From Paraburkholderia largidicola (lineage in GTDB: Bacteria; Pseudomonadota; Gammaproteobacteria; Burkholderiales; Burkholderiaceae), in contig NZ_AP023176.1 of NCBI RefSeq assembly GCF_013426895.1, forward strand, positions 558,001 to 622,000: a DNA stretch of 64,000 nt, in the 5' to 3' direction. Of this stretch, positions 19,331-45,189 are shown piece after piece. The translations under genes were made by a program, and so were the position numbers. Below the pieces are notes generated by a model, which was not told the origin of the DNA, searched no databases, and saw only the letters and a program-made list of their open reading frames with translations. Position 1 is the first letter of the stretch, and every line of letters begins with the position of its first letter.

Positions 19331-20620
19331 ATGACGCCAAACCTGACATTCGCGCCGGACAGCATGGTCCATCCGGGTACCTTCGGAGCGGACGACGTTT
19401 CCGCAGCGGCGAAGCCTGTCGCTATCTCCGGGACCGATATTCTCACGGTCAAGAACCTGTCGAAGATCTTCGGACCCAAGCCCGAGCGTGCCGCTGGACT
19501 GATCAGGCAAGGTCTCGGCCGGAATGAAATCTTCGAGCAGACGGGCAACATGGTTGCCGTCAACGATGTGAGCCTCAGCGTGAAGGCGGGCGAAATTTTC
19601 GTCGTCATGGGCCTGTCCGGTTCGGGCAAGTCGACGCTGGTGCGCCTTCTGAACCGTCTGATCGAGCCGACGTCGGGCCAGGTCATTCTCGAAGGCCGCG
19701 ACATCGCGCCGATGTCGACGCCGGAACTGCGCGACGTGCGCCGCAAGAAGATGGCGATGGTGTTCCAGTCCTTCGCGCTGCTGCCGAACCGCACGGTGCT
19801 CGACAACATCGCCTATGGACTCGAAGTCGCGGGCCTCAAGAAGGCCGAGCGCTACGACATCGCACGCGCCGCGCTAACGCGGGTCGGCCTTGGCTCGTAT
19901 GAAAAGCTGCTGCCGGGCGAACTCTCCGGCGGCATGCAGCAACGCGTCGGCCTCGCTCGCGCGCTCGCCGTGAATCCTTCCGTGCTGTTGATGGACGAAG
20001 CCTTCTCGGCGCTCGATCCGCTGATCCGCTTCGAAATGCAAAGCGAACTCCTGCGGCTTCAGAAAGAAGAGCAGCGCACCATCGTGTTCATTTCTCATGA
20101 CATCGAAGAAGCGATCAAGATTGGCGGCCGCATCGGCATCATGAAAGATGGCTGCCTGATTCAGGTCGGCACACCGGCTGAACTGATCCAGTCGCCCGCC
20201 GATGCCTACGTGCGCGACTTCTTCCGCAATGTCGACGTGTCGCGCTTCCTGAAGGCGTCGAGCCTGATGACGACGGTCGAGCGCGGACTGATTTCCTGCG
20301 ACGTCGCTGCGCCTTCGGAGCGCTACCTGAATCAGCTCATCGACAGCGGCGTCGAATGCGGCTACGTGTGCGACGAAGCGGGTCGATATCAGGGCTGCGT
20401 CACGCCGGCTTCGCTGCACAAGACAGGCGGGCATTCGATCAGGGAAGCGTTCGTGAACGACGTGAACGCTGTTCCGCTGGATACGGATCTGCATCAACTG
20501 GCCACGATCGCCTTGAGCCAGCAGCACGACGTACCCGTCACCGACACAGCCGGCAGGCTCGCAGGCGTCGTGTCCTGCCGGACGATTCTCAAGCAGGTCA
20601 TGGAACGGAGAGCAGCATGA
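19331..20620 (+). CDS. Quaternary-amine (betaine-type) ABC importer ATPase with CBS domains
   Basis: ATP-binding subunit of 429 residues, ProV/OpuAA type. It has the N-terminal segment EIFEQTGNMVAVNDVSL typical of this group, Walker A GLSGSGKS, signature LSGGMQQR, Walker B LLMDEAFSALDP and switch His in FISHDIEEA. The last 130 residues form a CBS pair, used in OpuA-type systems to sense ionic strength. I chose the ATG at 19331; the upstream in-frame extension is unlike the family. The stop overlaps the permease start (ATGA). It energises uptake of a betaine- or choline-like compound at the inner membrane. Confidence 0.92.
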   Translation: MTPNLTFAPDSMVHPGTFGADDVSAAAKPVAISGTDILTVKNLSKIFGPKPERAAGLIRQGLGRNEIFEQTGNMVAVNDVSLSVKAGEIFVVMGLSGSGKSTLVRLLNRLIEPTSGQVILEGRDIAPMSTPELRDVRRKKMAMVFQSFALLPNRTVLDNIAYGLEVAGLKKAERYDIARAALTRVGLGSYEKLLPGELSGGMQQRVGLARALAVNPSVLLMDEAFSALDPLIRFEMQSELLRLQKEEQRTIVFISHDIEEAIKIGGRIGIMKDGCLIQVGTPAELIQSPADAYVRDFFRNVDVSRFLKASSLMTTVERGLISCDVAAPSERYLNQLIDSGVECGYVCDEAGRYQGCVTPASLHKTGGHSIREAFVNDVNAVPLDTDLHQLATIALSQQHDVPVTDTAGRLAGVVSCRTILKQVMERRAA

Positions 20621-21498
20621 ACTCGTCAGTCATCGGGAAGTTTGCGGAAAACGCGGTCAACTTTCTCTTTCAGCATTTCCGCGGCGGCTTCGACGCTTTC
20701 TCTGCCGCATTGGGCGCAGTCATCAAGCTGCTGGAAGACGGACTCGCTGCCGTGCCGTTCGTTGCGATGCTCGTGCTGCTCGTCGCCTTCGCATTGTGGC
20801 GGCGTGGCGTCGTGTTCTCGGTGTTCGTCGGCATTGCGCTGCTGGCGATCCACTACATGGGACTGTGGGCGCAGACGGTGTCGACGCTGGCGCTGGTGAT
20901 GGCGGCGACGGTCTTCAGCCTCGTGATCGGTGTGCCGCTGGGCATCTGGGGCGCGCGCAACAAACGCGTCGAAATGGTCCTGCGCTCGCTGCTCGATTTC
21001 ATGCAGACGATGCCGGCATTCGTCTATCTGATCCCCGCTGTCATCCTGTTCGGCCTGGGCCGTGTCCCTGCCGTGATCGCCACCATCGTGTTTTCGATGC
21101 CGCCTGTGGTACGCCTCACTACCCTGGGCATCCGCCAGGTGCGCGAAGAACTGCTGGAAGCGGGCCGCTCGTTCGGCAGCACGGATTCGCAACTGCTCTG
21201 GAAAATCCAGTTGCCAAATGCGCTGCCGTCGATCATGGCCGGCGTGAACCAGACCATCATGATGGCGCTTTCGATGGTCGTGGTCGCGTCGATGATCGGC
21301 GCGGGCGGCCTGGGCGAATACGTGTTGAGCGGCATCCAGCGGCTCGATATCGGCATCGGATTCGAGGGCGGACTGGGCGTCGTGCTGCTCGCCATCGTGC
21401 TCGACCGTCTCACGGAGAGCTTCGGCGTGAAGGCGACGAAGGCGAAGCGCACCGTTCGAACCACGAAGCCTGGCACGAACGCGGCGGTGCGCACCTGA
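20617..21498 (+). CDS. Betaine-type ABC importer permease (ProW-like)
   Basis: Inner-membrane permease of 293 residues with about six transmembrane helices. The binding-protein-dependent transport signature is present as EAGRSFGSTDSQLLWKIQLP, the coupling helix that contacts the ATPase. ALPSIMAGVNQTIMMALSMV and GAGGLGEYV are typical of the ProW/OpuAB group. The start ATG overlaps the ATPase stop by 4 bp. It works with the preceding ATPase and the binding protein encoded 98 bp downstream. Confidence 0.93.
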   Translation: MNSSVIGKFAENAVNFLFQHFRGGFDAFSAALGAVIKLLEDGLAAVPFVAMLVLLVAFALWRRGVVFSVFVGIALLAIHYMGLWAQTVSTLALVMAATVFSLVIGVPLGIWGARNKRVEMVLRSLLDFMQTMPAFVYLIPAVILFGLGRVPAVIATIVFSMPPVVRLTTLGIRQVREELLEAGRSFGSTDSQLLWKIQLPNALPSIMAGVNQTIMMALSMVVVASMIGAGGLGEYVLSGIQRLDIGIGFEGGLGVVLLAIVLDRLTESFGVKATKAKRTVRTTKPGTNAAVRT

Positions 21499-21596: not shown

Positions 21597-22472
21597 ATGA
21601 AGATCAATCTGTTCAAATCGCTGGTTGCGAAGCTGACTGTGTCGACGGTCGTCGCAGTGAGCGCTGGCCACGCTGTGGCAGCCGAGCCGATCAAGATGGC
21701 CGTGACCAACTGGGCAGACGTGCTCGCTGTCGCCAACGTGGCCAAGTACGCGCTCGAGACCAGTCTCAAGCAGCCCGTCCAGTTCGTGCAGGCGGATATC
21801 GGCATCCAGTATCAGGGCGTTGCGCGCGGCGATCTCGACATCATGGTTGGCGGCTGGTTGCCCGTCACGCATGGTGCCTACTACGCGAAGTACAAGAACG
21901 ACATGGAAGACGTCGGCGTGATCTATACGGGCGGCAAGAACGGCTGGGCGGTGCCGGCCTACATTCCCGAGTCGCAGCTTGCAACGATCTCCGACCTGGA
22001 AAAGCCGGAAGTGAAGAGCAAGCTGAACGGCACCATTCAAGGTATCGAGCCCGGCGGCGGTCTGATGCAGGCATCGGAAAAGGCGCTCAAGGCGTACGAC
22101 CTGAATGGCTACAACCTGCAATCGTCGAGCGAGGCAGGCATGCTCGCGGGCGTGTCGCGCGCCTATCAGTCGAAGCAATGGGTCGTCGCCACGGTCTGGA
22201 GCCCGCACTGGCTGTTCCAGAAGTGGCAGATGCGCTACCTGAAGGACCCGAAAGGCACGTTGGGCGGCGAGGAGCAGGTGCATGGGTTTGCATCGAAGCA
22301 GTTCGCAACGAAATTCCCGCGTGCTGATGTGTTCTTCAAGCACTTCAAGCTGACGCTCGCCGACGTCGAGGCGATCGAATTCGAAGGCAACAGCACGAAC
22401 GACTACGCGACGGCCGCAAAGAAATTCGTCGATGCCCATCCGGAAAAGCTGAAGGCCTGGTTGCAGCAATAA
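21597..22472 (+). CDS. Betaine-type ABC importer substrate-binding protein (OpuAC-like)
   Basis: Periplasmic binding protein of 291 residues with a signal peptide cleaved after AVAA. Aromatic residues that form the cation-binding box of glycine betaine and choline receptors are visible: Trp in [14 protein letters not shown] and VWSPHWLF. This supports a ligand with a quaternary ammonium or sulfonium group. The ribosome site TAGGAG precedes the ATG. Third gene of the importer operon; GlyA follows 89 bp later. Confidence 0.92.
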
Positions 22473-22561
22473 GCCGCAATCAGCCGAACAGCACCCGCAT
22501 CGCATCGACCGTTGTCGCCGTCTTGCACTACATGCTTCACGATCTTTCCCGGAGTAACCAC

Positions 22562-23857
22562 GTGAACGAGAACTCGCGCTTTTTTGCAGAACCGCTCCAG
22601 AGCCGCGACCCTGTCATCGCATCGGAGATTGCGCTGGAATTGCGCCGCCAGCAGACGCAGATCGAACTGATCGCTTCCGAGAACATCGTCTCGGCAGCGG
22701 TGATGGAAGCGCAAGGCACCGTGCTGACCAACAAATACGCGGAAGGCTATCCGTCGAAGCGTTACTACGGCGGCTGCGAGCATGTGGACCGCGTCGAGGC
22801 GCTCGCCATCGACCGCGTGAAGGCGCTGTTCGAATCCGAGTACGCCAATGTGCAGCCGCATTCGGGCGCGCAGGCAAATGGCGCGGTGATGCTCGCGCTC
22901 GTCAAGCCGGGCGACACGGTGATGGGCATGTCGCTCGATGCGGGCGGCCACCTGACGCACGGCGCGCGTCCCGCGCTGTCGGGCAAGTGGTTCAACGCGG
23001 TTCAGTACGGCGTGAATCCGCAAACGTATCGCATCGACTACGAGCAGGTGCGCAGGCTGGCTGAAGAGCATCGGCCGAAGCTGATCATCGCGGGCTACTC
23101 GGCGTATCCGCGTGCGCTGGACTTCGCCGCATTCCGCGACATCGCCGATAGCGTGGGCGCGCTGCTGATGGTCGACATGGCGCACATCGCGGGCATCGTC
23201 GCAGCGGGGCGGCACGAGAACCCGGTGCGATTCGCCGATGTCGTGACATCGACGACGCACAAGACGCTGCGCGGTCCGCGTGGGGGCTTCATTCTCACCA
23301 ACAACGGCGACATCGCGAAGAAGATCAACTCGGCCGTCTTCCCCGGCTTGCAGGGCGGGCCGCTGATGCATGTCATTGCGGGCAAGGCGGTCGCGTTCGG
23401 CGAAGCGCTCCGGCCGGAGTTCACCGCCTATATCGACCAGGTGCTGCGCAACGCCCAGGCGCTCGGCGATGTGCTCAAGTCGGGCGGGCTGAGCCTCGTG
23501 ACGGACGGCACCGACAACCATTTGCTGCTCGTCGATCTGCGCTCGAAGGGTCTGACGGGTACGCAGGCGGAGAAGGCGCTGGAGCGCGCCGGCATCACCT
23601 GCAACAAGAACGGCATTCCGTTCGACACGCAGAACCCGACTGTCACGTCGGGCATTCGCCTCGGCACACCGGCAGGCACGACGCGTGGTTTTGGCACCGC
23701 GCAATTCGAACAGATCGGCCAGATGATTCTGGAAGTGTTGTCCGCGCTGGAACACGAACCTGCGGGCGACGAGCAGGTCGAGCGCGCTGTCCGCAGTCGC
23801 GTGCGCGATCTGTGCAGCCAGTTCCCCATTTACTCGCATGCCGAAGCGCTTGTGTAA
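22562..23857 (+). CDS. glyA: Serine hydroxymethyltransferase
   Basis: PLP enzyme of 431 residues that interconverts serine and glycine with tetrahydrofolate. Family motifs include [27 protein letters not shown] and the cofactor lysine 234 in [14 protein letters not shown] choose the GTG at 22562 because GGAGTAACCAC places a ribosome site correctly and VNENSRFF starts where the family starts; an ATG at 22532 is a weaker option. In this position it is probably a second, catabolic copy handling glycine or one-carbon units from demethylation, as in betaine-degradation clusters. Confidence 0.95.
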
Positions 23858-23894: not shown

Positions 23895-24782
23895 ATGAGC
23901 TTCGAGGGCGTACACACACCGCTCGTCACCCCGTTCAAGGCGGATGGCGAAATCGATCACACGTTGCTCGGCAAGCACGCCGCGAATCTCGCCGGCCGTG
24001 TCGCCGGCCTCGGCGTCGGCGGAACGACGGGCGAATACTACGCGTTGAGTTTCGACGAACGCGTGGAGACGTTTCACACCGTTGCCGAAGCGGCGGGCGG
24101 CAAGACGTATCTGACGGCCGGCATCAACGCGACAACGACGAAAGAAGTGATCCGTCTAGGCCAGGAAGCGAAGCGTGCGGGCCTGAATGCACTCCTGCTC
24201 GCCGCGCCGTACTACGCGCAGCCGACCCAGGACGAACTGCTGACCCACCTGCTGAAGGTGGACGACAGTCTCGACATGCCCGTCATGCTGTACAACTTTC
24301 CGGCGCGCACGGGCACGGACATCAGCGACGGCGTGCTGTCGAAACTGCTCGAACGTCCCAACTTCATCGCGATGAAGGAAAGCACGGGCGATATTTCGCA
24401 TCTGCATCATCTCGCCACGCACTTCAAGGATCGGCTGGTGCTGAGCTGCGGGATGGACGACCAGGCGCTGGAGTTCTTCGTATGGGGCGCAAAGAGCTGG
24501 GTGGGCGGCGCGTCCAACTTCCTGCCGGAAGCACACACGGCGCTGTTCGATGCGTGCGTGAAGCAAGGCGACTTCACAACCGGCCGCAAGCTGATGGCGC
24601 AGTTGCTGCCCGTGCTCGAACTACTGGAACGCAGCGGCAAGTTCATTCAATACGTCCGATACGGCTGCGAGCTGGCCGGCATGCCCGTCGGCGTCGCACG
24701 CGCGCCGCTCGGCACGCTCGATGAAAACGAACGCAGCGGCTTTGCGAAGCTCGTACGCCCGATGTTGTCCAACGCTCAGTAA
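23895..24782 (+). CDS. DapA-family lyase/aldolase (not necessarily dihydrodipicolinate synthase)
   Basis: Class I (Schiff-base) TIM-barrel enzyme of 295 residues. GGTTGEYYALS (Thr44-Thr45) binds the carboxylate, Tyr133 (LYNFPART) and Lys161 (FIAMKEST) are the catalytic pair. The family includes DapA, hydroxyproline-pathway deaminases, keto-deoxy-sugar dehydratases and aldolases. In this operon, between glyA and an amine oxidase gene, a catabolic reaction on a keto acid or imino acid is more likely than lysine biosynthesis. The ribosome site AGAGAG precedes the ATG. The exact reaction is unknown. Confidence 0.9.
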   Translation: MSFEGVHTPLVTPFKADGEIDHTLLGKHAANLAGRVAGLGVGGTTGEYYALSFDERVETFHTVAEAAGGKTYLTAGINATTTKEVIRLGQEAKRAGLNALLLAAPYYAQPTQDELLTHLLKVDDSLDMPVMLYNFPARTGTDISDGVLSKLLERPNFIAMKESTGDISHLHHLATHFKDRLVLSCGMDDQALEFFVWGAKSWVGGASNFLPEAHTALFDACVKQGDFTTGRKLMAQLLPVLELLERSGKFIQYVRYGCELAGMPVGVARAPLGTLDENERSGFAKLVRPMLSNAQ

Positions 24783-24787
24783 CGTGC

Positions 24788-26119
24788 ATGACCTCGAAAC
24801 TGGAATTCGCGCGGTTTCCCGCCCCGGACGGCGTGAACGGATGGTGGGAAAGCCTGCCGCCGCCTGCGCCTGCCGTCGCGGTGTCGTCTGAGCGCCGCTA
24901 CGACTGGGTCGTGGTCGGCGGCGGCATTACGGGCCTGTGCGCGGCCCGGCGCCTGGCCGAACTGGCGCCCGATGCGTCGATTGCGCTGGTCGAGGCGGAT
25001 CGTATCGGGCGCACGACGGCCGGGCGCAATTCCGGCTTCTTCGTCGATCTGCCGCACGACATCAGCAGCGAGAGCTATTCGCGCAGCGTGGAGGCGGACA
25101 AGGCAGACGTCCGCTTTCAGCGTCACGGCATCGACTATGTGCGCTCGGTCGTGAAGCAGCACGGCATCGAGTGCGACTGGCGCGACGATGGGAAATTTCA
25201 TGCGTCGGTGAACCGGAAGGGGCATGGGGCGCTGGCGCATTTTGCCGAGGGCCTCGAACGTATCGAGGAATCGTTCGAATGGCTCGACGCAGCCGCCATT
25301 GCGAAGGTGACGGGCACCGACTTCTACGAGGGTGCGCTCTTCACGCCCGGCTGCAGCACGGTGCAGCCCGCGGCGCTGATGCGCGGTCTCGCTGCGAGCC
25401 TGCCCGGCAACGTGCAGGTTTTCGAACTCAGCGCGGTGACGCGGATCGAGGACCAGGGGCTTTCGAAGGTGTTGACCTTCGCGGGCGGCAAGATCGTCGC
25501 GAAGCGCGTGATTCTCTGCACCAACGCCTATGCGGCGACGTTCGGCGGACATCCGAACGGCCTGCTGCCTGTGTACACGTTCGCGTCGATGACGCGTGTC
25601 ATGAAGCCGGAAGAAGTTCAGCGGCTAGGCGGCACGCGCTCATGGGCGCTGATTCCCGCCGACCCGATGGGCTCGACGGTGCGCCGTCTGATCACGGACC
25701 GCATCTGCGTTCGCAATCACTTTGCTTTCCGGCCGAATCTGGAAGTATCGCCGGCCGATCTGGCGAAAGCGAAGAGCCTGCATCAACGGTCGTTCGACCG
25801 GCGCTTTCCGATGTTGAAGGACGTCGAACTCGAATACACGTGGGGCGGTCCGCTGTGCCTGTCGGCGAACAACGGCGCGTTGTTCGGGCGCCGGGCCGAC
25901 GGCGTGTTCGAAGCGGTCGGATGCAATGGCCTGGGCTTAAGCCGAGGGTCGGCGTCAGGCAAGCTGATCGCCGAATACGCGCTCGGCCAGTCCAGCGATC
26001 TCGTCCGTCAGCTTCTGAACCAGCCGCATCCGCGTTCGCTGCCCGTGCGTCCCATTGCGGACGTCGCGGTATCGGCGGCCATCTGGGTCAAGGAATTTTC
26101 GGCGGGTGCCGAGCTTTAA
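24788..26119 (+). CDS. FAD-dependent amine oxidoreductase (DAO/PuuB-like)
   Basis: Flavoprotein oxidase of 443 residues. The dinucleotide-binding motif VVVGGGITGLCAARRLAEL lies at about 40-58, followed by AGRNSGFF, typical of DadA/PuuB-like enzymes; the C-terminal FAD motif reads CNGLGLSRGSASGKLIAEY. Relatives oxidise gamma-glutamylputrescine, sarcosine-type N-methyl amines or D-imino acids to imines or aldehydes. It starts 5 bp after the DapA-family gene, and the following aldehyde dehydrogenase gene is 17 bp downstream, so oxidation to an aldehyde and then an acid is the likely sequence. Confidence 0.9.
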   Translation: MTSKLEFARFPAPDGVNGWWESLPPPAPAVAVSSERRYDWVVVGGGITGLCAARRLAELAPDASIALVEADRIGRTTAGRNSGFFVDLPHDISSESYSRSVEADKADVRFQRHGIDYVRSVVKQHGIECDWRDDGKFHASVNRKGHGALAHFAEGLERIEESFEWLDAAAIAKVTGTDFYEGALFTPGCSTVQPAALMRGLAASLPGNVQVFELSAVTRIEDQGLSKVLTFAGGKIVAKRVILCTNAYAATFGGHPNGLLPVYTFASMTRVMKPEEVQRLGGTRSWALIPADPMGSTVRRLITDRICVRNHFAFRPNLEVSPADLAKAKSLHQRSFDRRFPMLKDVELEYTWGGPLCLSANNGALFGRRADGVFEAVGCNGLGLSRGSASGKLIAEYALGQSSDLVRQLLNQPHPRSLPVRPIADVAVSAAIWVKEFSAGAEL

Positions 26120-26136: not shown

Positions 26137-27630
26137 ATGACGACGTATCAGGAATGGAAGCAGAAAGCGGAAGGCTTGTCGCTCGACGGCAGAGCCTTTA
26201 TCGCGGGACAGCGCACAAACGCGGCATCGAACGAGACGTTTGCGACGCTCAATCCTTCTACGGGTAAAGTGCTGGCCGACATCGCGAAGTGCGATGTGAA
26301 GGATATCGACCGCGCGGTCGCGGCGGCGCGGGATGCATTCGAGTCCGGCGTGTGGTCGAAAGCCGCGCCCGCCCAGCGCAAGGCAGTGCTGCTGCGACTC
26401 GCGCAACTGATCGACGACAACGCCCAGGAACTCGCGCTGCTCGAAGCGCTGGAAGCCGGCAAGCCGATCAGCGAATGCCTGGGACTGGACATTCCCGAGT
26501 CGGCGGCGTGCATCCGCTGGCATGCCGAAGTCACCGACAAGCGATACGACGCGCTGTCGCCGTCGGGCGCGAGCGTCGTCAGCATGATTACGCGCGAACC
26601 GATCGGTGTCGTGGGCGCGGTGCTGCCGTGGAATTTTCCGGCCCTCATGCTCGCATGGAAAATCGGCCCGGCGCTGTCGGTCGGCAACAGCGTGATCGTG
26701 AAGCCTGCCGAGCAGACCTCGCTGTCCACGCTGCGCATCGCCGATCTCGCGCTGGAAGCGGGCGTGCCCGCAGGCGTGTTGAGCGTCGTGACGGGCCTGG
26801 GCGAAAGCGCGGGTCAGGCGTTGGGCCGTCATGCGGACGTCGATCTGGTGGCGTTCACGGGCTCGACGGAAACCGGCAAGCGGTTTCTGCATTACTCGGC
26901 TGACACGAACCTGAAGCGCGTCGTGCTCGAATGCGGCGGCAAGAACCCGCAGGTCGTGTTGCCCGATGTCGCGAATCTCGATGCCGTCGCCGAGCAGGCC
27001 GTCGCCGCCGCGTTCTGGAACATGGGCGAGAACTGCAGCGCGGGCTCGCGCATTCTGGTTCCAGCGTCGCTGAAGGCGAGCCTGCTGGAAAAAGTACAGG
27101 CGGTTCTGGAAGGATGGAAGACGGGCGATCCGCTCGACCCCGACGTCAAGCTCGGTTCGCTGATCGAGCAGAAGCATTTCGAAAAGGTGCTCGCTCACAT
27201 CGAAAAGGCGAAGGCGGAGGGCGCGCGCGTCGTGTGCGGCGGCAAGGCCACGCGCGCCGACTCGGGCGGCTGGTTCGTCGAGCCGACGATCTTCGACAAC
27301 GTGACGCCGGACATGAGCATCGCGCGCGAAGAAGTGTTCGGCCCGGTCGTGTGTTTCATCGAATATGCGGATATCGACGAAGCCGTGCAGATTGCCAACG
27401 ACACCTGCTACGGCCTCGCCGCCTCGCTGTGGACCGACAACGTGAACCATGCGCACAAGATCGCGGCGCGGATTCGCGCGGGCACGGTGACGGTGAACTG
27501 CTTCGGCGAAGGCGACCTGTCGACGCCGTTCGGCGGGTTCAAGCAATCGGGCTTTGGCGGCCGCGACAAATCCGTCTATGCGCACGACCAGTACTGCGAG
27601 TTGAAGACCACCTGGCTGAAGCTCGACTAA
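26137..27630 (+). CDS. NAD(P)-dependent aldehyde dehydrogenase (PuuC-like)
   Basis: Aldehyde dehydrogenase of 497 residues, normal length. Catalytic Glu265 (VLECGGKNP) and Cys300 (MGENCSAGSR) are present, with the cofactor motif FTGSTETGK and PWNFPALMLAWK. The C-terminus FGGFKQSGFGGRDKS resembles the gamma-aminobutyraldehyde/betaine-aldehyde group and PuuC most closely. It follows the FAD oxidase gene in the same operon and would oxidise its aldehyde product. A hairpin at 27652 follows the stop codon. Confidence 0.93.
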   Translation: MTTYQEWKQKAEGLSLDGRAFIAGQRTNAASNETFATLNPSTGKVLADIAKCDVKDIDRAVAAARDAFESGVWSKAAPAQRKAVLLRLAQLIDDNAQELALLEALEAGKPISECLGLDIPESAACIRWHAEVTDKRYDALSPSGASVVSMITREPIGVVGAVLPWNFPALMLAWKIGPALSVGNSVIVKPAEQTSLSTLRIADLALEAGVPAGVLSVVTGLGESAGQALGRHADVDLVAFTGSTETGKRFLHYSADTNLKRVVLECGGKNPQVVLPDVANLDAVAEQAVAAAFWNMGENCSAGSRILVPASLKASLLEKVQAVLEGWKTGDPLDPDVKLGSLIEQKHFEKVLAHIEKAKAEGARVVCGGKATRADSGGWFVEPTIFDNVTPDMSIAREEVFGPVVCFIEYADIDEAVQIANDTCYGLAASLWTDNVNHAHKIAARIRAGTVTVNCFGEGDLSTPFGGFKQSGFGGRDKSVYAHDQYCELKTTWLKLD

Positions 27631-27697: not shown

Positions 27698-28468
27698 ATG
27701 CGAGCTGGATTCATCGGAACGGGCACGATCACACAAGCGGTCGTGAAGGGCATGCTCAGATTCGGCGTGCCGTTCGAGCGGATATCGCTGTCGCCGCGCA
27801 ATGCGCAGACGGCGGCGGAGCTTGCCGCGCTCGACGGGCGTATCCACGTCTGCGCGAGCAACCAACAAGTGCTGGATGACTCGGATGTCGTTTGCCTGGC
27901 TGTCGTGCCGCAAATCGCGGCCGAAGTGCTCGGCGAACTCGAATTCGGTTCGCGTCACCACGTCATCAGTTTCATGGCGGGTATTTCTCTCGATCAGTTG
28001 CGCAGCCTTGTCCGCACGAACGGCAAGCTTGCGCGTGCCGTGCCGCTGCCAGCCGTCGCAGAGGGCAAGGGCAGTACCGCGATCTGCCCCGCCGACGAAG
28101 TCGCCAAAGCAATCTTCGCGGCGCTCGGTGAAGCAGTGGAAGTCGACAGCGAAGACAGGTTCGACGCCTTGTCGGCCGTCACGGCGACGATGGCGAGCTT
28201 CTACGCGGTGCTCGAAACCCAGGCGTCGTGGCTCGCGAAACAGGGCATCGACTACGCCGACGCGCGTGCATTTTTGTCCGGCTACTGTGTAGGACTTGCC
28301 CACGACACGACCCGCACGGCCCAGCCGTTTTCAGCAATGGCCATGCATTGCATGACACCGGGCGGCATCAACGAACAGGTGCACACCGAGCTTTCCCGCC
28401 GTGGGGCATACGCTTGCTACAGCGAAGCGCTCGACGGCGTGCTGCGCCGTATCAGGGGCCGGGCGTAG
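27698..28468 (+). CDS. ProC-like pyrroline-5-carboxylate reductase family protein
   Basis: Reductase-family protein of 256 residues. The N-terminal Rossmann motif GFIGTGTITQAVVKG lacks the usual third glycine spacing of ProC but keeps the fold pattern, and AVPLPAVAEGKGSTA corresponds to the P-site region of pyrroline-5-carboxylate reductase. The C-terminal dimer domain is recognisable (TPGGINEQVHTELSRRGAY, matching the TPGGTT-type motif). Placement behind an amine oxidase and an aldehyde dehydrogenase suggests reduction of a cyclic imine or a related salvage step. Function as a true proline-biosynthesis enzyme is doubtful. Confidence 0.82.
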   Translation: MRAGFIGTGTITQAVVKGMLRFGVPFERISLSPRNAQTAAELAALDGRIHVCASNQQVLDDSDVVCLAVVPQIAAEVLGELEFGSRHHVISFMAGISLDQLRSLVRTNGKLARAVPLPAVAEGKGSTAICPADEVAKAIFAALGEAVEVDSEDRFDALSAVTATMASFYAVLETQASWLAKQGIDYADARAFLSGYCVGLAHDTTRTAQPFSAMAMHCMTPGGINEQVHTELSRRGAYACYSEALDGVLRRIRGRA

Positions 28469-28688
28469 CGACAAAAGCCGAACCGCTCGCGAGCGCCGCA
28501 GCAGCGGATAATCATCAGATGCAGCCGCCGGATGCGCGCCAGGCGGCCGGGGCGCGGCACATGCGGCGATGCACCCGGGTTGGCCGCCATTGCCAGTTGT
28601 CAGGAAGAATCGCACACTATTTTCTCGCGGGAGCTGTCTGCTCGACGCGCGGTCGCCGCATCGCGGGTCCGCTTCACAGGTGAAAGCC

Positions 28689-29690
28689 ATGCAAAAGAAA
28701 CAGTTGTTCGCTGACCGGCTGCTCGCGCAGATGCCTTCTCTGCGGGCGCTGAGATGCTTCGTCACGGCTGCCCGATACGAGAGCTTCACGCAGGCCGCCG
28801 AAGTGCTGTGCGTCACCCAGGCCGCCATCAGCCGGCAGATCAAGGAACTGGAGGACTCGCTGGAAGTGGCGCTGTTCGAGCGGACGGGCAGGCACATTGC
28901 GCTGACGGATGCCGGGCGCATTCTGTACAACGCGTCGTATCTGTCGATCATGAACATCGCCGAAGCGGCCGAAGCCGTGCGCCGCACCGACCGGCATGCG
29001 CTGACGGTGTGCGTCTCGCACACTTTCTCGGCGCTGTGGCTGTCGTTCAGGCTGCCGTCGTTTCGCAAGCGCTTTCCGGAGATCCGTTTGCACGTGATGG
29101 TCACCGAGCATTTCATGGAACTCGACGACCTCATGGAGCCCGACGTCATCATCACGAAGAATCCGCCGCGCGAGCCGGAGTATGAAATCGAGCCGCTCTT
29201 TCATGACGTGGTGTATCCCGTGTGCAGCCCGTCGTTTCATGAGCGGCATTTTCACGGCAGATCGTTGAAGCCGCTGGATCTGCTGTCGCATCCCACGTTG
29301 AATCTGTCGCTGCTGGGACGCGCCCAGGTTTGCGAGCACGTCGACTGGCGCGTGTGGCGCAACTGGTTCCAGCAAGGCGACGGTTCGGACCGGCTGGTCG
29401 ACAACGAACATCTGGAAAGCAACGACTACCGGCTGCTGGTTGCGCAGGCCGAGGCAGGTGAAGGCACGTTGCTCGGCTGGCATCATCTCGTGCATCGTCA
29501 GGTCGAACAGGGCCAGCTGTTACGGCCCGTGCAGGATGCGCTCGAATTCCACGACCGTCATCACTATGTGATCACGCACAAGAATGCGAAGCTGCGGCCC
29601 GAATACGTGCAGTTCCGCGAATGGCTCGGCGAAGAAGTCGGCGCGATGATGCGCGAATGGCGAGGCGTCGAAACCGAAGCGGCGAAGTAG
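28689..29690 (+). CDS. LysR-family transcriptional regulator (GcvA-like)
   Basis: Regulator of 333 residues with the helix-turn-helix ESFTQAAEVLCVTQAAISRQ and a GcvA-type effector domain. The ATG at 28689 is chosen because AGGTGA lies at the right distance and MQKKQLFADRLLAQMPSLRAL leads directly into the DNA-binding domain; the open frame extends 40 codons further upstream without family resemblance. It is in line with the catabolic genes and probably controls one of the two halves of the cluster. Confidence 0.9.
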   Translation: MQKKQLFADRLLAQMPSLRALRCFVTAARYESFTQAAEVLCVTQAAISRQIKELEDSLEVALFERTGRHIALTDAGRILYNASYLSIMNIAEAAEAVRRTDRHALTVCVSHTFSALWLSFRLPSFRKRFPEIRLHVMVTEHFMELDDLMEPDVIITKNPPREPEYEIEPLFHDVVYPVCSPSFHERHFHGRSLKPLDLLSHPTLNLSLLGRAQVCEHVDWRVWRNWFQQGDGSDRLVDNEHLESNDYRLLVAQAEAGEGTLLGWHHLVHRQVEQGQLLRPVQDALEFHDRHHYVITHKNAKLRPEYVQFREWLGEEVGAMMREWRGVETEAAK

Positions 29691-29757
29691 CTTGACCGAT
29701 ATCCGTTCAGGCCGCGTGAGCGGCCACGATTCACAGTACGTCGACGCAGGCAGTGCC

Positions 29758-30792
29758 ATGTTGAGCGACACGCTTCACTCCGAAAGCAGAACGTCCCGGC
29801 CCTTGCGCTTTGGCATCGTGCTGCTGCCGAACTTCACGTTGACGGCATTCTCGGGCTTCGTCGACCTGCTCCGTCTGGCCAGCGACGAAGGCGACATGAG
29901 CCGGCCCGTGCGCTGCTCGTGGACTATCGTCGGGGAATCGCTCGTGCCCGTCAGGGCGAGTTGCGGCATCCAGGTCGCGCCGTGGACTACCTTCGATGAA
30001 GCAGGCGTCTTCGATTACGTAGTGGTCGTCGGCGGCCTGTTGCATTCGGGGCCGTCCGCCAGCAAGGCCACGCTGCAGTTCATCCAGGACGCCGCCAGGA
30101 CATCCGCGACGCTGGTCGGCATCTGCACGGGCGCGTTCGCGCTGATGCGAGCCGACGTGATGGATGGCTACCGCATCTGCGTGAGCTGGTTCCATTACTG
30201 GGATTTCGTCGAACGCTTTCCGGGTGTCGACGAGCGAATGCTGGTCGCGGACCGGCTGTTCGTGATCGACGGGCGGCGCATTACCTGTTCGGGCGGACGC
30301 GCATCGATCGATGTCGCCGCCGCGATCCTGCTGCGTCATGTCGAGGCGACGATCGTCCAGAAGGCGCTGCGCATCATGCTGGTCGACGATGCGCAGAAGG
30401 GCAACGCGCCGCAGCCGCATCCGCCGGGACTCGAACCGGCAACGCATCCGAAGGTGCGGCGCGCGATCCTGCTGATGGAGCAGCATATCGGGCAGCCGTT
30501 GAGTCTCGCGGAACTGGCCCGACGGCTGGATATGTCGGTGAGGCAACTGGAGCGGCTGTTCGCGGCCGAAACGGGCAAGTCGCCGCATGCGTATGGACGG
30601 CAGATCCGCATACGCATGGCGTCGTGGCTGCTGACCAGTTCGGACCGCACGGTTGCCGATATCGCCGCGTCGTGTGGCTTTTCCGACGCTTCGCATCTCG
30701 GCCGTGAATTCAGAAAGGAATTCGGCGAATCGCCAAACGCGTATCGCGTGGCGAGGCCGCAAAGCCACTCACCTGCACTGGCCGCAAGCTGA
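29758..30792 (+). CDS. GlxA-family AraC-type regulator (GbdR/CdhR-like)
   Basis: Regulator of 344 residues made of an N-terminal class I glutamine amidotransferase-like domain (about 18-190; FGIVLLPNFTLTAFSGFVD, GICTGAFALMRA) and a C-terminal AraC double helix-turn-helix (about 235-325; LSLAELARRLDMSVRQLERL and VADIAASCGFSDASHLGREF). This architecture is that of GbdR, CdhR and related activators of glycine betaine, carnitine and dimethylglycine catabolism. The ATG at 29758 is preferred over an upstream TTG (29692) or GTG (29716). It supports an onium substrate for the cluster. Confidence 0.9.
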   Translation: MLSDTLHSESRTSRPLRFGIVLLPNFTLTAFSGFVDLLRLASDEGDMSRPVRCSWTIVGESLVPVRASCGIQVAPWTTFDEAGVFDYVVVVGGLLHSGPSASKATLQFIQDAARTSATLVGICTGAFALMRADVMDGYRICVSWFHYWDFVERFPGVDERMLVADRLFVIDGRRITCSGGRASIDVAAAILLRHVEATIVQKALRIMLVDDAQKGNAPQPHPPGLEPATHPKVRRAILLMEQHIGQPLSLAELARRLDMSVRQLERLFAAETGKSPHAYGRQIRIRMASWLLTSSDRTVADIAASCGFSDASHLGREFRKEFGESPNAYRVARPQSHSPALAAS

Positions 30793-30837
30793 CAGGTGCG
30801 GTGAGCGCATACAACCCGGCAACAGGAACCACTCTAC

Positions 30838-31248
30838 ATGACGACCGCCCAACTGCGTGACGAAATGGTTCTCTTCGGCCTGAACGTGAAGGATGCGCGC
30901 CGCTGGTATTCGATCGACGAGCGCGACTGGCGCGCGATGAAGATCGGCGACTCGGTGCTGCCCGGCTTCTTCTGGATTCCCGTTGCCGAAGACGAACGCG
31001 GCGCGTGGACCAGCTACTGGATGCGTCTGGAGCCAGGCGCGCGCTCGTTCGAGCATCAGCACGATTCGACCGAGCTGATCATGATTCTCGACGGCGTGTT
31101 CACGGACGACGACGGCACCGATTTCCTTCCCGGTCAGACCGTGTGCTACGCGGCGGGTTCGCGGCATAGCACGTCGTCGGAAGGGGGCTGCACGGTGCTG
31201 GTGGTCGCGCATATCGGCTCGACGATCGTTTCTCGCGCGCAAGGCTGA
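30838..31248 (+). CDS. Cupin-domain protein (ChrR-like cupin)
   Basis: Single cupin of 136 residues with metal ligands His73, His75, Glu79 (FEHQHDSTELIMILDG) and His110. The layout resembles the ChrR-type cupin fold found in anti-sigma factors and small dioxygenases. It lies 45 bp after the AraC-type gene and 44 bp before a binding-protein gene. It could sense or modify the pathway substrate; nothing in the sequence identifies a reaction. Confidence 0.82.
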   Translation: MTTAQLRDEMVLFGLNVKDARRWYSIDERDWRAMKIGDSVLPGFFWIPVAEDERGAWTSYWMRLEPGARSFEHQHDSTELIMILDGVFTDDDGTDFLPGQTVCYAAGSRHSTSSEGGCTVLVVAHIGSTIVSRAQG

Positions 31249-31292
31249 GCAGGAAGCATTGCGCCTCATGTGCCGCAATCGGAGGTGAACCG

Positions 31293-32441
31293 ATGGTCAA
31301 TACTTCACGAAGAGTTCTTCTCGCCTCGCTGACTGCGATCGCGATGACGCTCGCAAGTCATCCATCCGTTGCACAGCAGGTCGTCAAGATAGGCGTGTCG
31401 GCGCCGTTGACGGGCGTCGGAGCGGCGAACGGGAAGGACATCGAAAACGGTGTGCGGCTTGCCATCGAAGAAGCCAACGCGCAGCACATCAAACTGGGCG
31501 GACAGGACGTGCGCTTCGAGATGGCCTCCGTGGATGACCAGGGCGACCCGCGCGTCGGTGTACAGGTAGCACAGAAACTGGTCGACGACGGCGTGGTGGC
31601 CGTGGTCGGTTATTACAACTCGGGTGTCGCATTGCCCGCATCGCCGATCTTCGCCAAGGCAGGCATTCCACTGATCGACCCCGCCGCGACCAATCCCGCG
31701 ATCACGCGTCAGGGCCTGAAGAACGTGTTCCGCATCATCGCCACCGATGCGCAGAACTCCGGCAATGCCGGCAAGTACGCCGTCACCGTCACCAAAGCGC
31801 AACGGATCGCCGTGATGGACGACCGCACGGCATTCGGCCAGGGCGCCGCAGACGAATTCAAGAAGGCCGTCGCGGCGGCGGGCGGCCAGATCGTCGCGTC
31901 GGAATACACGCAAGAGAAGGCCGTCGAATTCAATGCGCAACTCACGAGCATCAAGGCGGCCAATGCCGATCTGCTGTACTTCGCCGGACTCGACAATCAG
32001 GCCGCGTTGCTGACCAAGCGCATGAGACAGCTTGGCATGCGCGCGCAGTTCGTCGGCAGCGGCGGTATTGCCGACAGCATCTTCATCAGTGTCGCGGGCA
32101 GCGCGGCCGAAGGCGCGATGGCGTGGGAGTACGGCCGGCCAGTCGAGTCGCTGCCGCAAGGCAAGGCGTTCGCGGAAAAGTTCAAGAAGCGCTTCGGCGC
32201 GGACACGCTGACTTATGCGCCATTCGCCTATGACTGCGCATGGGTGGCGATCAACGCAATGAAACAGGCGAACTCCGCAAAGCCCGAGGTGTTCATGCCC
32301 ACACTGCGCACGACACAGTACGAGGGGATCACCGGAAAGATCGAGTTCGATGCCTACGGCGACCTGAAGCATCCAACGTCGACGCTGTATCAGGTGAAGA
32401 ACGGAAAATGGGTGCCTGTGACGACGATCAGCGCGGAATGA
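31293..32441 (+). CDS. Branched-chain-amino-acid-type ABC substrate-binding protein (LivK-like), orphan
   Basis: Periplasmic binding protein of 382 residues with a signal peptide ending near SVAQQ. The peripla-BP-6 fold is shown by VKIGVSAPLTGVGAANGKDI and GVVAVVGYYNSGVALPASPI. A very strong ribosome site, GGAGGTGA, precedes the ATG. No LivHMFG-type permease or ATPase genes occur in the window, so it must share a transporter encoded elsewhere or act as a sensor. It lies between the cupin gene and a LysR gene whose start is 7 bp downstream. Confidence 0.9.
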   Translation: MVNTSRRVLLASLTAIAMTLASHPSVAQQVVKIGVSAPLTGVGAANGKDIENGVRLAIEEANAQHIKLGGQDVRFEMASVDDQGDPRVGVQVAQKLVDDGVVAVVGYYNSGVALPASPIFAKAGIPLIDPAATNPAITRQGLKNVFRIIATDAQNSGNAGKYAVTVTKAQRIAVMDDRTAFGQGAADEFKKAVAAAGGQIVASEYTQEKAVEFNAQLTSIKAANADLLYFAGLDNQAALLTKRMRQLGMRAQFVGSGGIADSIFISVAGSAAEGAMAWEYGRPVESLPQGKAFAEKFKKRFGADTLTYAPFAYDCAWVAINAMKQANSAKPEVFMPTLRTTQYEGITGKIEFDAYGDLKHPTSTLYQVKNGKWVPVTTISAE

Positions 32442-32448
32442 GTTCAGG

Positions 32449-33375
32449 ATGAAACCGGCTAATGCAGGGACCAAAGGATACCGGCGCCTCATTCCGTCGA
32501 TGACGGCCCTCGTCGAGTTCGAATCGGTCGCGCGCCTGAGCAGTTTCACGGTCGCGGCGAACGAACTCGGCGTCACGCAGGCGGCCGTCAGCCGGCAGGT
32601 CAAATTCCTCGAAGACACGCTCGGCGTGCGGCTCTTTCACCGCCTGCATCGTTCGATCGAGCTGACCGACGAAGGCGAGGCGCTGTACCTCGTGGTCGCC
32701 GGGTCGATGCAGAAAATAGCCGGCGTGTTCGACCGGCTTTCCAGCGGCCCGGTGCAGCAGGAACTGGTGCTGGCGGCGACGTCCGCCTTCTCGCATTTTC
32801 GGCTATTGCCGCGTCTCGCTTCGCTGAAGAAAGCGCAGCCGAATCTTCAGCTTCGTCTGTCCACCCAGATGTTCACGGCAGACCTGCGGCACAAGGAGAT
32901 CGATGTCGCGGTGCGCTTCGGTAACGGCCGATGGAGCGACGGCACGGCAACCTTGCTGTTCGACGAGGAAGTCTTTCCCGTGTGCTCGCCGAAGTGGGTG
33001 GCGTCGCGCGGCATGCCGCAATCGCTGCAGGACGTCGCGAACGCGGCGCTGATCGAGTCGGACTCGACGTCGGAAGGCTGGATGGGATGGGAAGCGTGGT
33101 TCAATGCCGTCGGCCTGCGGCCGCTGCGCCTGAACTTCGCGCTGCGCTGCAGCCTGTACACGGACGCGATCCAGGCCGCGCGCTATGGCGAGGGCATCGC
33201 GCTCGGCTGGGGAAGGCTCGTCCACGATCTCGTCGAATCCGGCGAGCTGGTAAGGCTGCCCGTCGCGTCGCTCAAGCCGGACGACGCGTACTTCATCGTG
33301 GTGCCGCACGGGCGCACCATCACGGCTGCCACCGACAGCCTGATCGACTGGCTGCGGCAGGATTCGCTCGCATAA
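32449..33375 (+). CDS. LysR-family transcriptional regulator (GcvA-like)
   Basis: Regulator of 308 residues; the helix-turn-helix reads SSFTVAANELGVTQAAVSRQV, followed by a GcvA-type effector domain with RFGNGRWSDGTATLLFDEEV. It begins 7 bp after the binding-protein gene, so it is probably co-transcribed. The likely target is the Rieske oxygenase operon 118 bp downstream, whose upstream region carries a T-rich inverted repeat (33408-33429). Confidence 0.92.
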   Translation: MKPANAGTKGYRRLIPSMTALVEFESVARLSSFTVAANELGVTQAAVSRQVKFLEDTLGVRLFHRLHRSIELTDEGEALYLVVAGSMQKIAGVFDRLSSGPVQQELVLAATSAFSHFRLLPRLASLKKAQPNLQLRLSTQMFTADLRHKEIDVAVRFGNGRWSDGTATLLFDEEVFPVCSPKWVASRGMPQSLQDVANAALIESDSTSEGWMGWEAWFNAVGLRPLRLNFALRCSLYTDAIQAARYGEGIALGWGRLVHDLVESGELVRLPVASLKPDDAYFIVVPHGRTITAATDSLIDWLRQDSLA

Positions 33376-33407
33376 TCCAAAGTAATGCCAGACCGAAAAT
33401 AAAGCGC

Positions 33408-33429
33408 ATTGACGCTCTTTTTCGTCAAT
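33408..33429. promoter_or_regulatory. Inverted repeat ATTGACG-N8-CGTCAAT upstream of the Rieske operon
   Basis: ATTGACG (33408-33414) and CGTCAAT (33423-33429) are exact reverse complements around CTCTTTTT. It lies 65 bp before the Rieske gene and 32 bp after the LysR stop. It fits a LysR-type or AraC-type operator; a weak terminator for the LysR gene is the alternative. Confidence 0.4.
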
Positions 33430-33493
33430 CCAATACTGGGTTCATCGCGGGAACACTGGACGTTCCCACATCCCCTGAACGTTGGAGAAGACG

Positions 33494-34750
33494 ATGTCCG
33501 AAGTGTCATTCAAAACTCATGGCGAATTGATCCGCAGCCGTCAGGCCGGTCACGGCATGCCCGGCGAGCTGTTCGGGCGTCAGGACGTGTTCGAGACGGA
33601 CATCGAAGTCTTCTTTCACAAGCACTGGATTCTCGTCGGCGTGACGGCGGATGTTCCCGAACCGGGCGATGTGTCCGTCGTCGATATCGGCAAGGCGTCG
33701 ATCATGATCGTGCGGGACGACGATGAAAACGTCCGCACCTACCGCAACGTCTGCCGGCATCGGGGCGCGCGTCTGAAGGAGGCGGGGAAGTCGACGGTCG
33801 GCATGCTGGTCTGTCCTTACCATCAATGGACCTACGACCTCGACGGCAGCCTGCGCCACGCCTCGCACATGGGCAAGGATTTCGATGCCACCTGCCGCAG
33901 CCTGATCCCGGTGCATACGAAGATTGTCGGCACGCATATTTTCGTGTGCCTCGCCTCGGAGCCGCCCGAAGATATCGCGATACTCGAAGAAACGATGGTG
34001 CCGCGTTTCGCTCCGTTTGACCTGCGGAATACGAAGATCGCTTTCGAGCAGGAGATCATCGAAGAAGGCAACTGGAAACTCGTGATGGAAAACAACCGCG
34101 AGTGTTATCACTGCGCGGCCACGCATCCCGAACTGACGGCTTCATTTCTTCCTGAAGACTTCGGCTTTTGCCCGGACAATCTGAACGAAGAGTCACTGCG
34201 CGCGCTGGACGAATATAAGGCGCGCAATGCGGCGTGTCAGGCAAGCTGGGAACGCGACGGATTCATCAGCGCCGCTTTCGAGCGGCTCGACGAGGACGCC
34301 GTCACCCAGTTCAGAACGCAGCAACTGGTCATTGCGGGCAACGGCGAATCGCAAACGCTCAACACGAAAGTGGCGAGCACCCGGCTGCTGGGCAATCTGC
34401 AGCGCCGCGATCTCGGCGATATGCACCTCTGGACGCACAACTCATGGACGCATGTGATGAGCGACCATGCCGTGATCAGCTACATCATTCCGCTGGCGCC
34501 GGACAGGACGCTGGTGCGGTCGAAATGGCTCGTCCATGCCGATGCGGTGGAAGGCGTCGATTACAAGGTATCGGACCTGACCGAAGTCTGGATCGCAACC
34601 AATACGCAGGACAAGCACCTCGTCGAAATCACACACGAAGGCACGCAGGACCCGGCCTACACGCCGGGCATGTTCTCGCCGTTCACCGAAACCTACGTCG
34701 ACCAGTTCTCGCGCTGGTATGCAGCGCGTTTGAGCGCGCACGGCATCTGA
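33494..34750 (+). CDS. Rieske ring-hydroxylating-type oxygenase, GbcA-like (onium demethylase) alpha subunit
   Basis: Terminal oxygenase of 418 residues. The Rieske [2Fe-2S] site is Cys87-x-His89 and Cys107-x2-His110 (CRHRG, CPYHQW). The catalytic Fe ligands His206 and His211 lie in ENNRECYHCAATHPEL, a motif shared with GbcA (glycine betaine monooxygenase) and stachydrine demethylases. The late motif TNTQDKHLVE also matches that group. It would oxidatively remove an N-methyl group from a betaine-like compound with release of formaldehyde. The ATG at 33494 has a GGAG ribosome site. The reductase gene follows at 15 bp. Confidence 0.93.
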   Translation: MSEVSFKTHGELIRSRQAGHGMPGELFGRQDVFETDIEVFFHKHWILVGVTADVPEPGDVSVVDIGKASIMIVRDDDENVRTYRNVCRHRGARLKEAGKSTVGMLVCPYHQWTYDLDGSLRHASHMGKDFDATCRSLIPVHTKIVGTHIFVCLASEPPEDIAILEETMVPRFAPFDLRNTKIAFEQEIIEEGNWKLVMENNRECYHCAATHPELTASFLPEDFGFCPDNLNEESLRALDEYKARNAACQASWERDGFISAAFERLDEDAVTQFRTQQLVIAGNGESQTLNTKVASTRLLGNLQRRDLGDMHLWTHNSWTHVMSDHAVISYIIPLAPDRTLVRSKWLVHADAVEGVDYKVSDLTEVWIATNTQDKHLVEITHEGTQDPAYTPGMFSPFTETYVDQFSRWYAARLSAHGI

Positions 34751-34764
34751 GCGAGGTCACCGTC

Positions 34765-35904: not shown

Positions 35905-35924
35905 CATTCGTCTGGAGCGAGCGC

Positions 35925-37148
35925 ATGGCTGAATGCGAACCCATCGACGTTCTCGTCGATTCGACGGGAACGGATAACACGCTGTCCGATGTCAGGGCAT
36001 ACCGCCTGGCGCGCGTGCAAGCGCAGTTAAAAAAGGCCAACTGTCCCGCGATACTGCTCTATGACCCGGTAAATATCCGCTATGCGACGGATACGTCGAA
36101 CATGCAGATATGGACGGGACGCAACCCGTCGCGGTATGTGATGGTATTCGCCGATGGCCGCGTCACCGGTTGGGAGTTTCATAGCTGCGAGCATGTGTGG
36201 AAAGGGCTGAGCCTGAACGTCGAGTTGCGTCCTGCGATCAGCTGGACGTTCTTCAACGCGGGGCACGACGCTGAACGCCGCGCGAAGACATGGAGTGCGG
36301 AAATCGTCGACGTGTTGAGCAGGCATGCGCCGAACGAAATGCGTCTTGCGGTCGACCGGCTCGATCCATTCGGTGCGGCATGCCTTGCCGAAACCGGCAT
36401 GACGCTGCTGGACGGGCAAGCGATGATGGAACTGGCGCGGAGCATCAAGTCGCCGGATGAGTGCGTGCTCATGCGCGAATCGATCCGTGCGTGCGAGAAG
36501 GGCATCGAGCGCATGCATCGCGAGCTTCGGCCGGGCATCACCGAGCAGGATCTATGGGCGCATCTTCACTACGAAAATATCCGCCACGGCGGCGAGTGGA
36601 TCGAAACGCGCCTTCTGTCTTCGGGGGACCGGACCAATCCGTGGATGCAGGAATGCTCGGCGCGCGTTCTGCGGCCTGGCGAATTGCTGGCATTCGACAC
36701 CGACATGGTCGGGCCGAATGGCTACTGTGCGGATATCTCCCGGACGTGGACGGTCGGGCATACCCGACCGACCGACGAGCAGCGCAAGCTCTATGAAACG
36801 GCGTATGCGCAGGTTCATTTCAACATGGGTTTGCTGCGTGCGGGGATGACATTCCGTGAGTTCTCGGAGAAAGCATGGAGGATCCCCGATGCGTATCTGA
36901 AGAACCGGTATAGCTGCATTGCGCATGGTATCGGCATGGTGGATGAATATCCGTCCATTGCGCATCAGGTCGATTGGGCAAGCAGTGGGTACGACGGCCA
37001 GTTCGAAGCGGGCATGACGCTCTGTGTCGAGAGTTATATCGGCGCGGATCGCGGCAGCGAGGGCGTGAAGCTCGAACAGCAGGTCTTGCTCACGGAGCAC
37101 GGTTGCGAGCCGCTCACGTCATGCGGGTTCGAAACGGGCTGGCTGTGA
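35925..37148 (+). CDS. M24-fold protein resembling the DMSP lyase DddP
   Basis: Protein of 407 residues with a creatinase-type N-domain and a pita-bread C-domain. LYDPVNIRYATDTSNMQIW and GGEWIETRLLSSGDRTNPW resemble DddP, the dimethylsulfoniopropionate lyase, more than Xaa-Pro aminopeptidases. Candidate metal ligands are Asp258, Asp260, Asp270, His334, Glu369 and Glu384. Tyr329 and Asp340 sit at the positions of the DddP catalytic residues, and the spacing of all eight equals what I recall for marine DddP (Asp295/297/307, His371, Glu406/421, Tyr366, Asp377). ATG at 35925. It closes the Rieske operon. A hydrolase acting on a related onium compound is the main alternative. Confidence 0.82.
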   Translation: MAECEPIDVLVDSTGTDNTLSDVRAYRLARVQAQLKKANCPAILLYDPVNIRYATDTSNMQIWTGRNPSRYVMVFADGRVTGWEFHSCEHVWKGLSLNVELRPAISWTFFNAGHDAERRAKTWSAEIVDVLSRHAPNEMRLAVDRLDPFGAACLAETGMTLLDGQAMMELARSIKSPDECVLMRESIRACEKGIERMHRELRPGITEQDLWAHLHYENIRHGGEWIETRLLSSGDRTNPWMQECSARVLRPGELLAFDTDMVGPNGYCADISRTWTVGHTRPTDEQRKLYETAYAQVHFNMGLLRAGMTFREFSEKAWRIPDAYLKNRYSCIAHGIGMVDEYPSIAHQVDWASSGYDGQFEAGMTLCVESYIGADRGSEGVKLEQQVLLTEHGCEPLTSCGFETGWL

Positions 37149-45178: not shown

Positions 45179-45189
45179 GTTGTTCTCCT

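Follow-up and report, generated by a model that had tools for sequence, protein, structure and literature searches.

A DddP-like M24 protein at the end of a Rieske demethylase operon in Paraburkholderia largidicola and its possible role in betaine catabolism

The DddP-like gene and its protein

The window analyzed here is a stretch of 64,000 nucleotides from Paraburkholderia largidicola (contig NZ_AP023176.1, positions 558,001 to 622,000), and our subject is the gene at 35925 to 37148 on its forward strand, which encodes a 407-aa M24 protein resembling DddP, a lyase of dimethylsulfoniopropionate (DMSP). The frame starts with an ATG at 35925 with a GGAG stretch upstream, and both DddP signature stretches quoted in the preliminary description of this DNA are found in it with the letters as given. 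Directly upstream lie a Rieske oxygenase of the GbcA/Stc2 type and its reductase, and dddP, 20 nt behind the reductase, which itself follows the oxygenase by 14 nt, is the last gene of an operon with a Rieske demethylase, as had been proposed. This tight gene order is the part of the proposed co-transcription with an onium demethylase that stands, while the co-transcription of the three genes is something we infer from it. The oxygenase is of the same type as the Stc2 and GbcA N-demethylases, and its PDB matches include 3vca/4qup, which we take to be Stc2, but it stays under the GbcA cutoff. A second GbcA-like Rieske oxygenase elsewhere in the genome, 52% identical to the window copy, scores higher on the GbcA model (473 bits; cutoff, 670), and for this reason an ordinary glycine-betaine pathway is disfavored.

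The protein is closest to DddP by profile, by PDB sequence, and by predicted fold. The NCBIfam DddP model NF043017 matched it with 395.8 bits (E = 2e-118), and the next model, aminopeptidase P, gave 51.4 bits. In a phmmer search of the PDB, the best match was RlDddP (4rzy; E = 2.5e-92, 313 bits), RdDddP (4b28) reached 304 bits, and the best non-DddP M24 entry reached 54 bits; an E value of 2.5e-92 rules out a chance likeness. The predicted fold is an M24 pita-bread fold nearest to solved DddP, with prolidase, creatinase, and DoeA coming next, so that the comparison of predicted structures suggested earlier also led to DddP. Membership among the peptidases and creatinases (creatinase, prolidase, aminopeptidase P, and DoeA) is ruled out by profile, fold, and tree, and the DddP family placement is upheld by sequence, residues, and predicted fold. 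However, the protein is only 38% identical to RlDddP and does not reach the equivalog cutoff of NF043017, which is 600 bits, so that by the NCBI rule its sequence does not qualify it as a DddP equivalog. Its linkage to a Rieske gene and its position outside the poorly supported RlDddP clade further distinguish it from RlDddP and RdDddP.

The active site of DddP is preserved. RlDddP residues D295, D297, D307, Y366, H371, D377, E406, and E421 correspond to D258, D260, D270, Y329, H334, D340, E369, and E384 of the window protein at a constant offset of 37, which confirms the exact DddP spacing of the six metal ligands (D295, D297, D307, H371, E406, and E421, all kept), Tyr329, and Asp340 that had been noted in the preliminary description. 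RlDddP W95 corresponds to Trp63; the residue numbers thus trail those of RlDddP by 32 at W95 and by 37 from D295 on, and therefore the N-terminal part is shorter than that of RlDddP, with a small gap in addition. In DddP, Tyr366 and Asp377 lie above the metal ions, and Asp377 is the preferred base (PMC4108388); a sulfur-binding Trp has also been described (PMC5395565), which we read as W95. The conservation is discriminating and not trivial, since of 175 DddP-like proteins 154 keep D377, whereas 20 have another residue there (Gly in 19 and Val in 1) and the fragment L072 has a gap. Seventeen of the 20 members of the tree set that lack D377 also have Tyr or Phe at W95. These paralogues (L146 to L153, L156 to L161, L165, L170, L172, L173, L181, and L075) carry Gly, or once Val, instead of the Asp; those of the phylum sample score 278 to 325 bits on the DddP model, and L149 to L151 directly precede an OpuAC-permease-ProV importer.

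For the tree, the 175 sequences were reduced to 141 DddP-like proteins by dropping duplicates and the fragments L072 and L073, and five M24 outgroups were added, all from one genome and each recognized by the family profile at an E value of <1e-12 (L186 and L190, with E values of >1e-3, were left out). Among these sequences the window protein is not placed within the peptidases or creatinases, the position that the preliminary description had named as speaking against a DddP identity. The paralogues that have lost D377 branch nearest the root, with poor support at some of those nodes (0.05 to 0.98). A D377-containing clade of 115 members (support, 0.996), just outside which six SAR11 proteins with D377 are placed, holds both the window protein and RlDddP. 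It splits into an RlDddP side with 46 members, supported at only 0.501, and a window clade with 69 (0.918), and the window protein thus lies outside the RlDddP side. Reported DddP enzymes in the tree are only RlDddP and that of Vibrio orientalis (L105), which is placed with RlDddP and shares 81% identity with an Oceanimonas protein. Compared with 17 Roseobacter-type DddP proteins, the window clade has 76 positions in common at ≥95% and 27 positions that differ, each at least 90% fixed in either group.

The putative betaine island and its linkage to dddP

The gene stands at the end of an island of about 18 kb (19190 to 37148), in which all accepted genes are on the forward strand (Table 1). Genes at the loci were called as longest open reading frames (ORFs) or by third-position GC content (GC3) and labeled by BLAST, which missed some, such as the window reductase and the cupin of L196. 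Reverse-strand calls at 20626 to 21192 and 34693 to 35907 cover the permease and reductase genes and were taken as shadow ORFs.

Table 1. Genes of the island, in order, and active-site codons of the DddP-like protein (window positions)
Feature	Position	Strand	Basis
ABC ATPase with CBS domain, ProV-type	19190..20620	+	BLAST and position
Probable ABC permease	20617..21498	+	Position; homologues in relatives lie between ProV and OpuAC
OpuAC-type betaine-binding protein	21597..22472	+	Library scan
Serine hydroxymethyltransferase (SHMT)	22523..23857	+	Library scan
Dihydrodipicolinate synthase (DHDPS)-superfamily protein	23895..24782	+	dapA model, 178 bits (cutoff 206)
DAO-family FAD oxidoreductase	24788..26119	+	Library scan
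Aldehyde dehydrogenase (ALDH)	26137..27630	+	No cutoff reached among the best 25 of 43 models
Pyrroline-5-carboxylate-reductase (P5CR)-like protein	27698..28468	+	NF005063, 325 bits (cutoff 254)
LysR-type regulator	28569..29690	+	Library scan (from 28689)
GlxA/AraC-type regulator, best match GbdR	29692..30792	+	188 bits (cutoff 480; scanned from 29758)
Small Cupin_7 (ChrR-like) protein	30838..31248	+	Library scan
ABC substrate-binding protein, branched-chain type	31293..32441	+	Library scan
LysR-type regulator	32449..33375	+	Library scan
Rieske oxygenase, GbcA/Stc2-type N-demethylase	33494..34750	+	GbcA model, 389 bits (cutoff 670; scanned from 33497); PDB 3n0q, 3vca/4qup; CxH-CxxH motif
Reductase, flavin/2Fe-2S, GbcB-like, 379 aa	34765..35904	+	GbcB model, 343 bits (cutoff 500; scanned from 34858)
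DddP-like M24 protein, 407 aa (subject)	35925..37148	+	Profile, PDB sequence, residue map, predicted fold, tree
Trp63 codon (RlDddP W95, aromatic residue of onium site)	36111..36113	+	Residue map
Tyr329 codon (RlDddP Y366)	36909..36911	+	Residue map
Asp340 codon (RlDddP D377, proposed catalytic base)	36942..36944	+	Residue map

The island looks like a hydroxyproline-type catabolic set. After 4-hydroxyproline epimerase, 4-hydroxyproline catabolism involves enzymes of the D-amino acid oxidase (DAAO), DHDPS, and ALDH superfamilies, as described in a paper that also refers to growers on hydroxyproline betaine (PMC4113996). The LysR-Rieske-reductase-DddP set recurs in L179 and L162 (another class, presumably Alphaproteobacteria), where the neighbors in L162 are DHDPS, ALDH, and DAO. 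The L179 island contains a true 4-hydroxyproline epimerase (568 bits; cutoff, 376) in addition to DAO, ALDH, and a ProV-type importer. Neighbors in a 65%-identity Burkholderiales clade include proline-racemase-family and Ldh_2 proteins resembling 3-hydroxyproline enzymes, with no cutoff reached. No proline-racemase-family gene was found among the scanned members of the window island, and a 4-hydroxyproline epimerase of the same genome (L209) lies on another contig. In 6 of 79 loci, the gene immediately after dddP encodes a formaldehyde dehydrogenase, and one of the glutathione type is near the Rieske gene in L205 and L216. The importer, the ring-amino-acid genes, the formaldehyde dehydrogenases, and the Rieske oxygenase together fit the N-demethylation of a proline-type betaine. 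No acrylate gene was found among the dddP-neighborhood genes scanned; the genome's own acuI is on another contig, where a true AcuI lies 2 to 3 kb from an aromatic-type Rieske oxygenase, away from dddP (L233; G000 C1:1619791-1623635).

Linkage, taken as a Rieske or reductase gene within 6.5 kb of dddP, was counted in loci whose flanks both extend for 6 kb or more. It was seen in 27 of 31 loci of the window clade but in none of the 12 on the RlDddP side and none of the 19 with D377-lost paralogues, and two of the four misses in the window clade (L048 and L049) have a Rieske gene 7 to 8 kb away. The linkage is kept in beta- and gammaproteobacteria and in one further class. Among 144 genomes of the genus, 38 have the Rieske gene and 30 a window-clade DddP, with 29 having both, and the Rieske gene occurs in 9 of the 114 others (Fisher P = 2e-21, with related genomes counted as independent, as in the test below). 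In one genome (G815), dddP is retained although the Rieske gene is missing. In another (G831, C3:1485076-1485573), only residues 242 to 407 of the window-clade DddP were matched (84% identity), beside the Rieske and reductase genes, which is probably a loss. A third (G882, L215) has a Rieske protein 90% identical to that of the window, together with a reductase, and no window-clade DddP.

Other onium-demethylation contexts were also seen. A different Rieske gene is nearby in 4 of 4 SAR11 loci in the linkage count. In the SAR11 loci L061, L066, L067, and L068, a DddP-like protein with Tyr for Trp95 and Asp377 kept stands beside methyltransferase, DMGDH-like, BHMT-like, and Rieske oxygenase genes. 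A second context of this kind is that of L164, L169, and L054, where DddP has DMGDH-like genes and an MTTB-type methyltransferase as neighbors.

In a sample of 398 genomes of the phylum, 41 have a match to the DddP model at an E value of ≤1e-70 and 17 are above the cutoff; with the window protein as the query, 2 of 399 genomes of the order sample, including its own, had a match at an E value of ≤1e-90. DddP-like genes are not rare within the genus, where 53 of the 144 genomes have one at an E value of ≤1e-90, several of them two to four paralogues, and 30 have the window clade (defined by at least 66% identity and including the partial match in G831). No report of DddP in Burkholderiaceae was found in the literature searched, which covers few subscription journals. 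DddD is already known in Burkholderia.

A second DMSP-lyase fold in the same island

In relatives, a 200-aa cupin adjoins dddP and shares its island, and this arrangement is new here. The cupin matches PF16867 (DMSP_lyase) with 181 bits (cutoff, 27), and its best PDB match is 5cu1, at only 32 bits, followed by DddQ. It was found in 9 of 79 dddP loci, directly after dddP in seven, and not in the P. largidicola genome. The fold of the DddQ/DddL/DddW-type cupins is unrelated to that of DddP, but the companion cupins keep the DddQ residues Y120, H125, E129, Y131, and H163 in 24 of 24 cases, and all 20 aligned sequences have both His residues of the HxH motif. Earlier work reportedly includes "DMSP lyase-like" cupins of unknown function. 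In the literature searched, neither the Rieske-DddP operon nor the island shared by DddP and the cupin is described.

The cupin occurs in 21 of the 144 genus genomes, 13 of the 30 with a window-clade DddP and 8 of the 114 without (Fisher P = 8e-6). Its neighborhood was examined in four of these eight (G765, G773, G795, and G814; G811, G819, G864, and G874 were left out). The cupin is beside the LysR-Rieske-reductase genes of the same island in three genomes, namely G765 and G773, both lacking a DddP match at an E value of ≤1e-90, and G795, where only a 49% relative occurs; in G814, it is beside the ALDH-DAO-DHDPS-SHMT half. A window-clade DddP or the cupin is thus present in 32 of the 38 Rieske genomes, and six hold neither. 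No substitute, enolase-type or other, was found among nine ORFs scanned in five of the six Rieske-only loci (L211 to L216, with L215 outside the scan). An AcuI-like reductase near the Rieske genes of L213 and L214 was rejected, being nearest to PIG3-type quinone reductases and not to AcuI.

Proposed role and alternatives

From sequence and gene context, the window protein is more likely a di-metal enzyme acting on an onium acid of the proline-type betaine class than on DMSP. In the specific form that we favor, to which we give an even chance, it would be the alpha-proton enzyme of a proline-type betaine pathway, with hydroxyproline betaine as the most likely substrate. The carboxylate of the onium acid would be bound by the two metal ions, and its positive group would pack against Trp63 and Tyr329. 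The alpha proton would be taken by Asp340, with Tyr329 close by, in line with the mechanism proposed for DddP. With a cyclic betaine, loss of this proton could lead to epimerization at C2 or, if a 3-hydroxyl is present, to elimination. After or before this step, the Rieske-reductase pair would strip the N-methyl groups, the formaldehyde would be handed to one-carbon metabolism, and the ring amino acid would be broken down by DAO, DHDPS, and ALDH; cleavage of DMSP may be a side activity. Hydroxyproline betaine 2-epimerase is the enzyme HpbD. The likeness to HpbD would lie in the removal of an alpha proton from a cyclic betaine, either preceding or following the Rieske demethylation, whereas the folds differ, HpbD belonging to the enolase superfamily and the window protein to M24. 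A "hydroxyproline betaine 2-epimerase" is cited in PMC5144071.

In our own reading, DddP, the DddQ-type cupins, and the algal lyase Alma (Alma1), a member of the aspartate racemase superfamily, may all abstract a proton that neighbors the carboxylate of an onium acid; with DMSP, this step expels dimethyl sulfide (DMS). It is conceivable, if rather unlikely, that the window-clade DddP and the PF16867 cupins are two unrelated inventions of one betaine alpha-proton step, C2 epimerization or elimination, like that of HpbD. If this were true, DMSP lysis by marine DddP and DddQ would be a specialization or a side reaction of enzymes that act on the alpha proton of onium acids, with Alma1 as a third example.

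Several points weigh against the assignment to a proline-type betaine pathway. The known substrate class shared by DddP and the DMSP-lyase cupins is DMSP and DMSOP, and a joint island is equally compatible with DMSP. The L179 island already has a 4-hydroxyproline epimerase, so that a betaine epimerase is less needed there, and the P. largidicola genome has one elsewhere. The Rieske, DAO, ALDH, and DHDPS proteins of the window reach no equivalog cutoff among the models listed, and the betaine is therefore deduced from gene sets only. The six Rieske genomes with neither a window-clade DddP nor the cupin mean that the step is not always needed, and the glycine-betaine-type neighbors on the other side of the tree (MTTB and DMGDH) call for no epimerase.

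The preliminary description had left a choice between DMSP lysis and activity on a related onium substrate, and the latter is the better half of that alternative, as the neighboring genes indicate a proline-type betaine. A working DMSP or DMSOP lyase, for which DMSP would be imported by the betaine transporter and cleaved to DMS and acrylate beside a co-regulated betaine pathway, is possible but somewhat unlikely. The protein scores 396 bits where the DddP equivalog cutoff is 600, lies outside the RlDddP clade, and is separated from the Roseobacter-type enzymes by the 27 near-fixed differences, and its neighbors serve N-demethylation and ring amino acids, with no acrylate gene among those scanned; in SAR116, by contrast, acuI is located upstream of dddP (PMC3338564).

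An ordinary M24 hydrolase, acting for example on hydroxyproline dipeptides or a betaine amide and feeding the same pathway, would suit an island concerned with hydroxyproline-type compounds, and C-N bond hydrolysis is usual for M24 enzymes, with prolidase, creatinase, and DoeA as the next folds. We nevertheless regard it as improbable given the profile scores (396 bits for DddP and 51 for aminopeptidase P), the retention of W95 and D377, which are absent from many DddP-like paralogues, and the lack of measurable RlDddP activity on Val-Pro (PMC5395565). That dddP is a passenger without a role in the island is very improbable: six Rieske genomes manage without it and G815 keeps it without the Rieske gene, but such a view is opposed by the 20-nt spacing in the operon and by a linkage that persists in beta- and gammaproteobacteria as well as in one further class.

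For DddP, which among bacterial DMSP lyase families is the one found most widely, the native role is an uneasy matter since its Km for DMSP is 14 to 17 mM (PMC5395565). A DddP-fold protein and a DMSP-lyase-type cupin in one soil-bacterial betaine island suggest a definite class of substrates on which both could be tested. A polar-ocean survey used a DddP cutoff of E = 1e-30 together with trees and residue checks (PMC8520302). Against the DddP model, the window protein gives 2e-118 and the Asp-lost paralogues give 1e-82 to 1e-97 in single genomes, E values that depend on database size. The paralogues would therefore be counted as dddP under such a loose cutoff, and counts made by it alone would include proteins that may not cleave DMSP.

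Elsewhere in the window, a ClpA/ClpB-type AAA protein (Clp_N, AAA_2, and ClpB_D2-small domains; 15929 to 18808) lies just upstream of the island, and the genes at 40440 to 46485 resemble, by eye from their translations, a heavy-metal resistance-nodulation-division (RND) efflux set with inner-membrane pump, adaptor, and outer-membrane protein.
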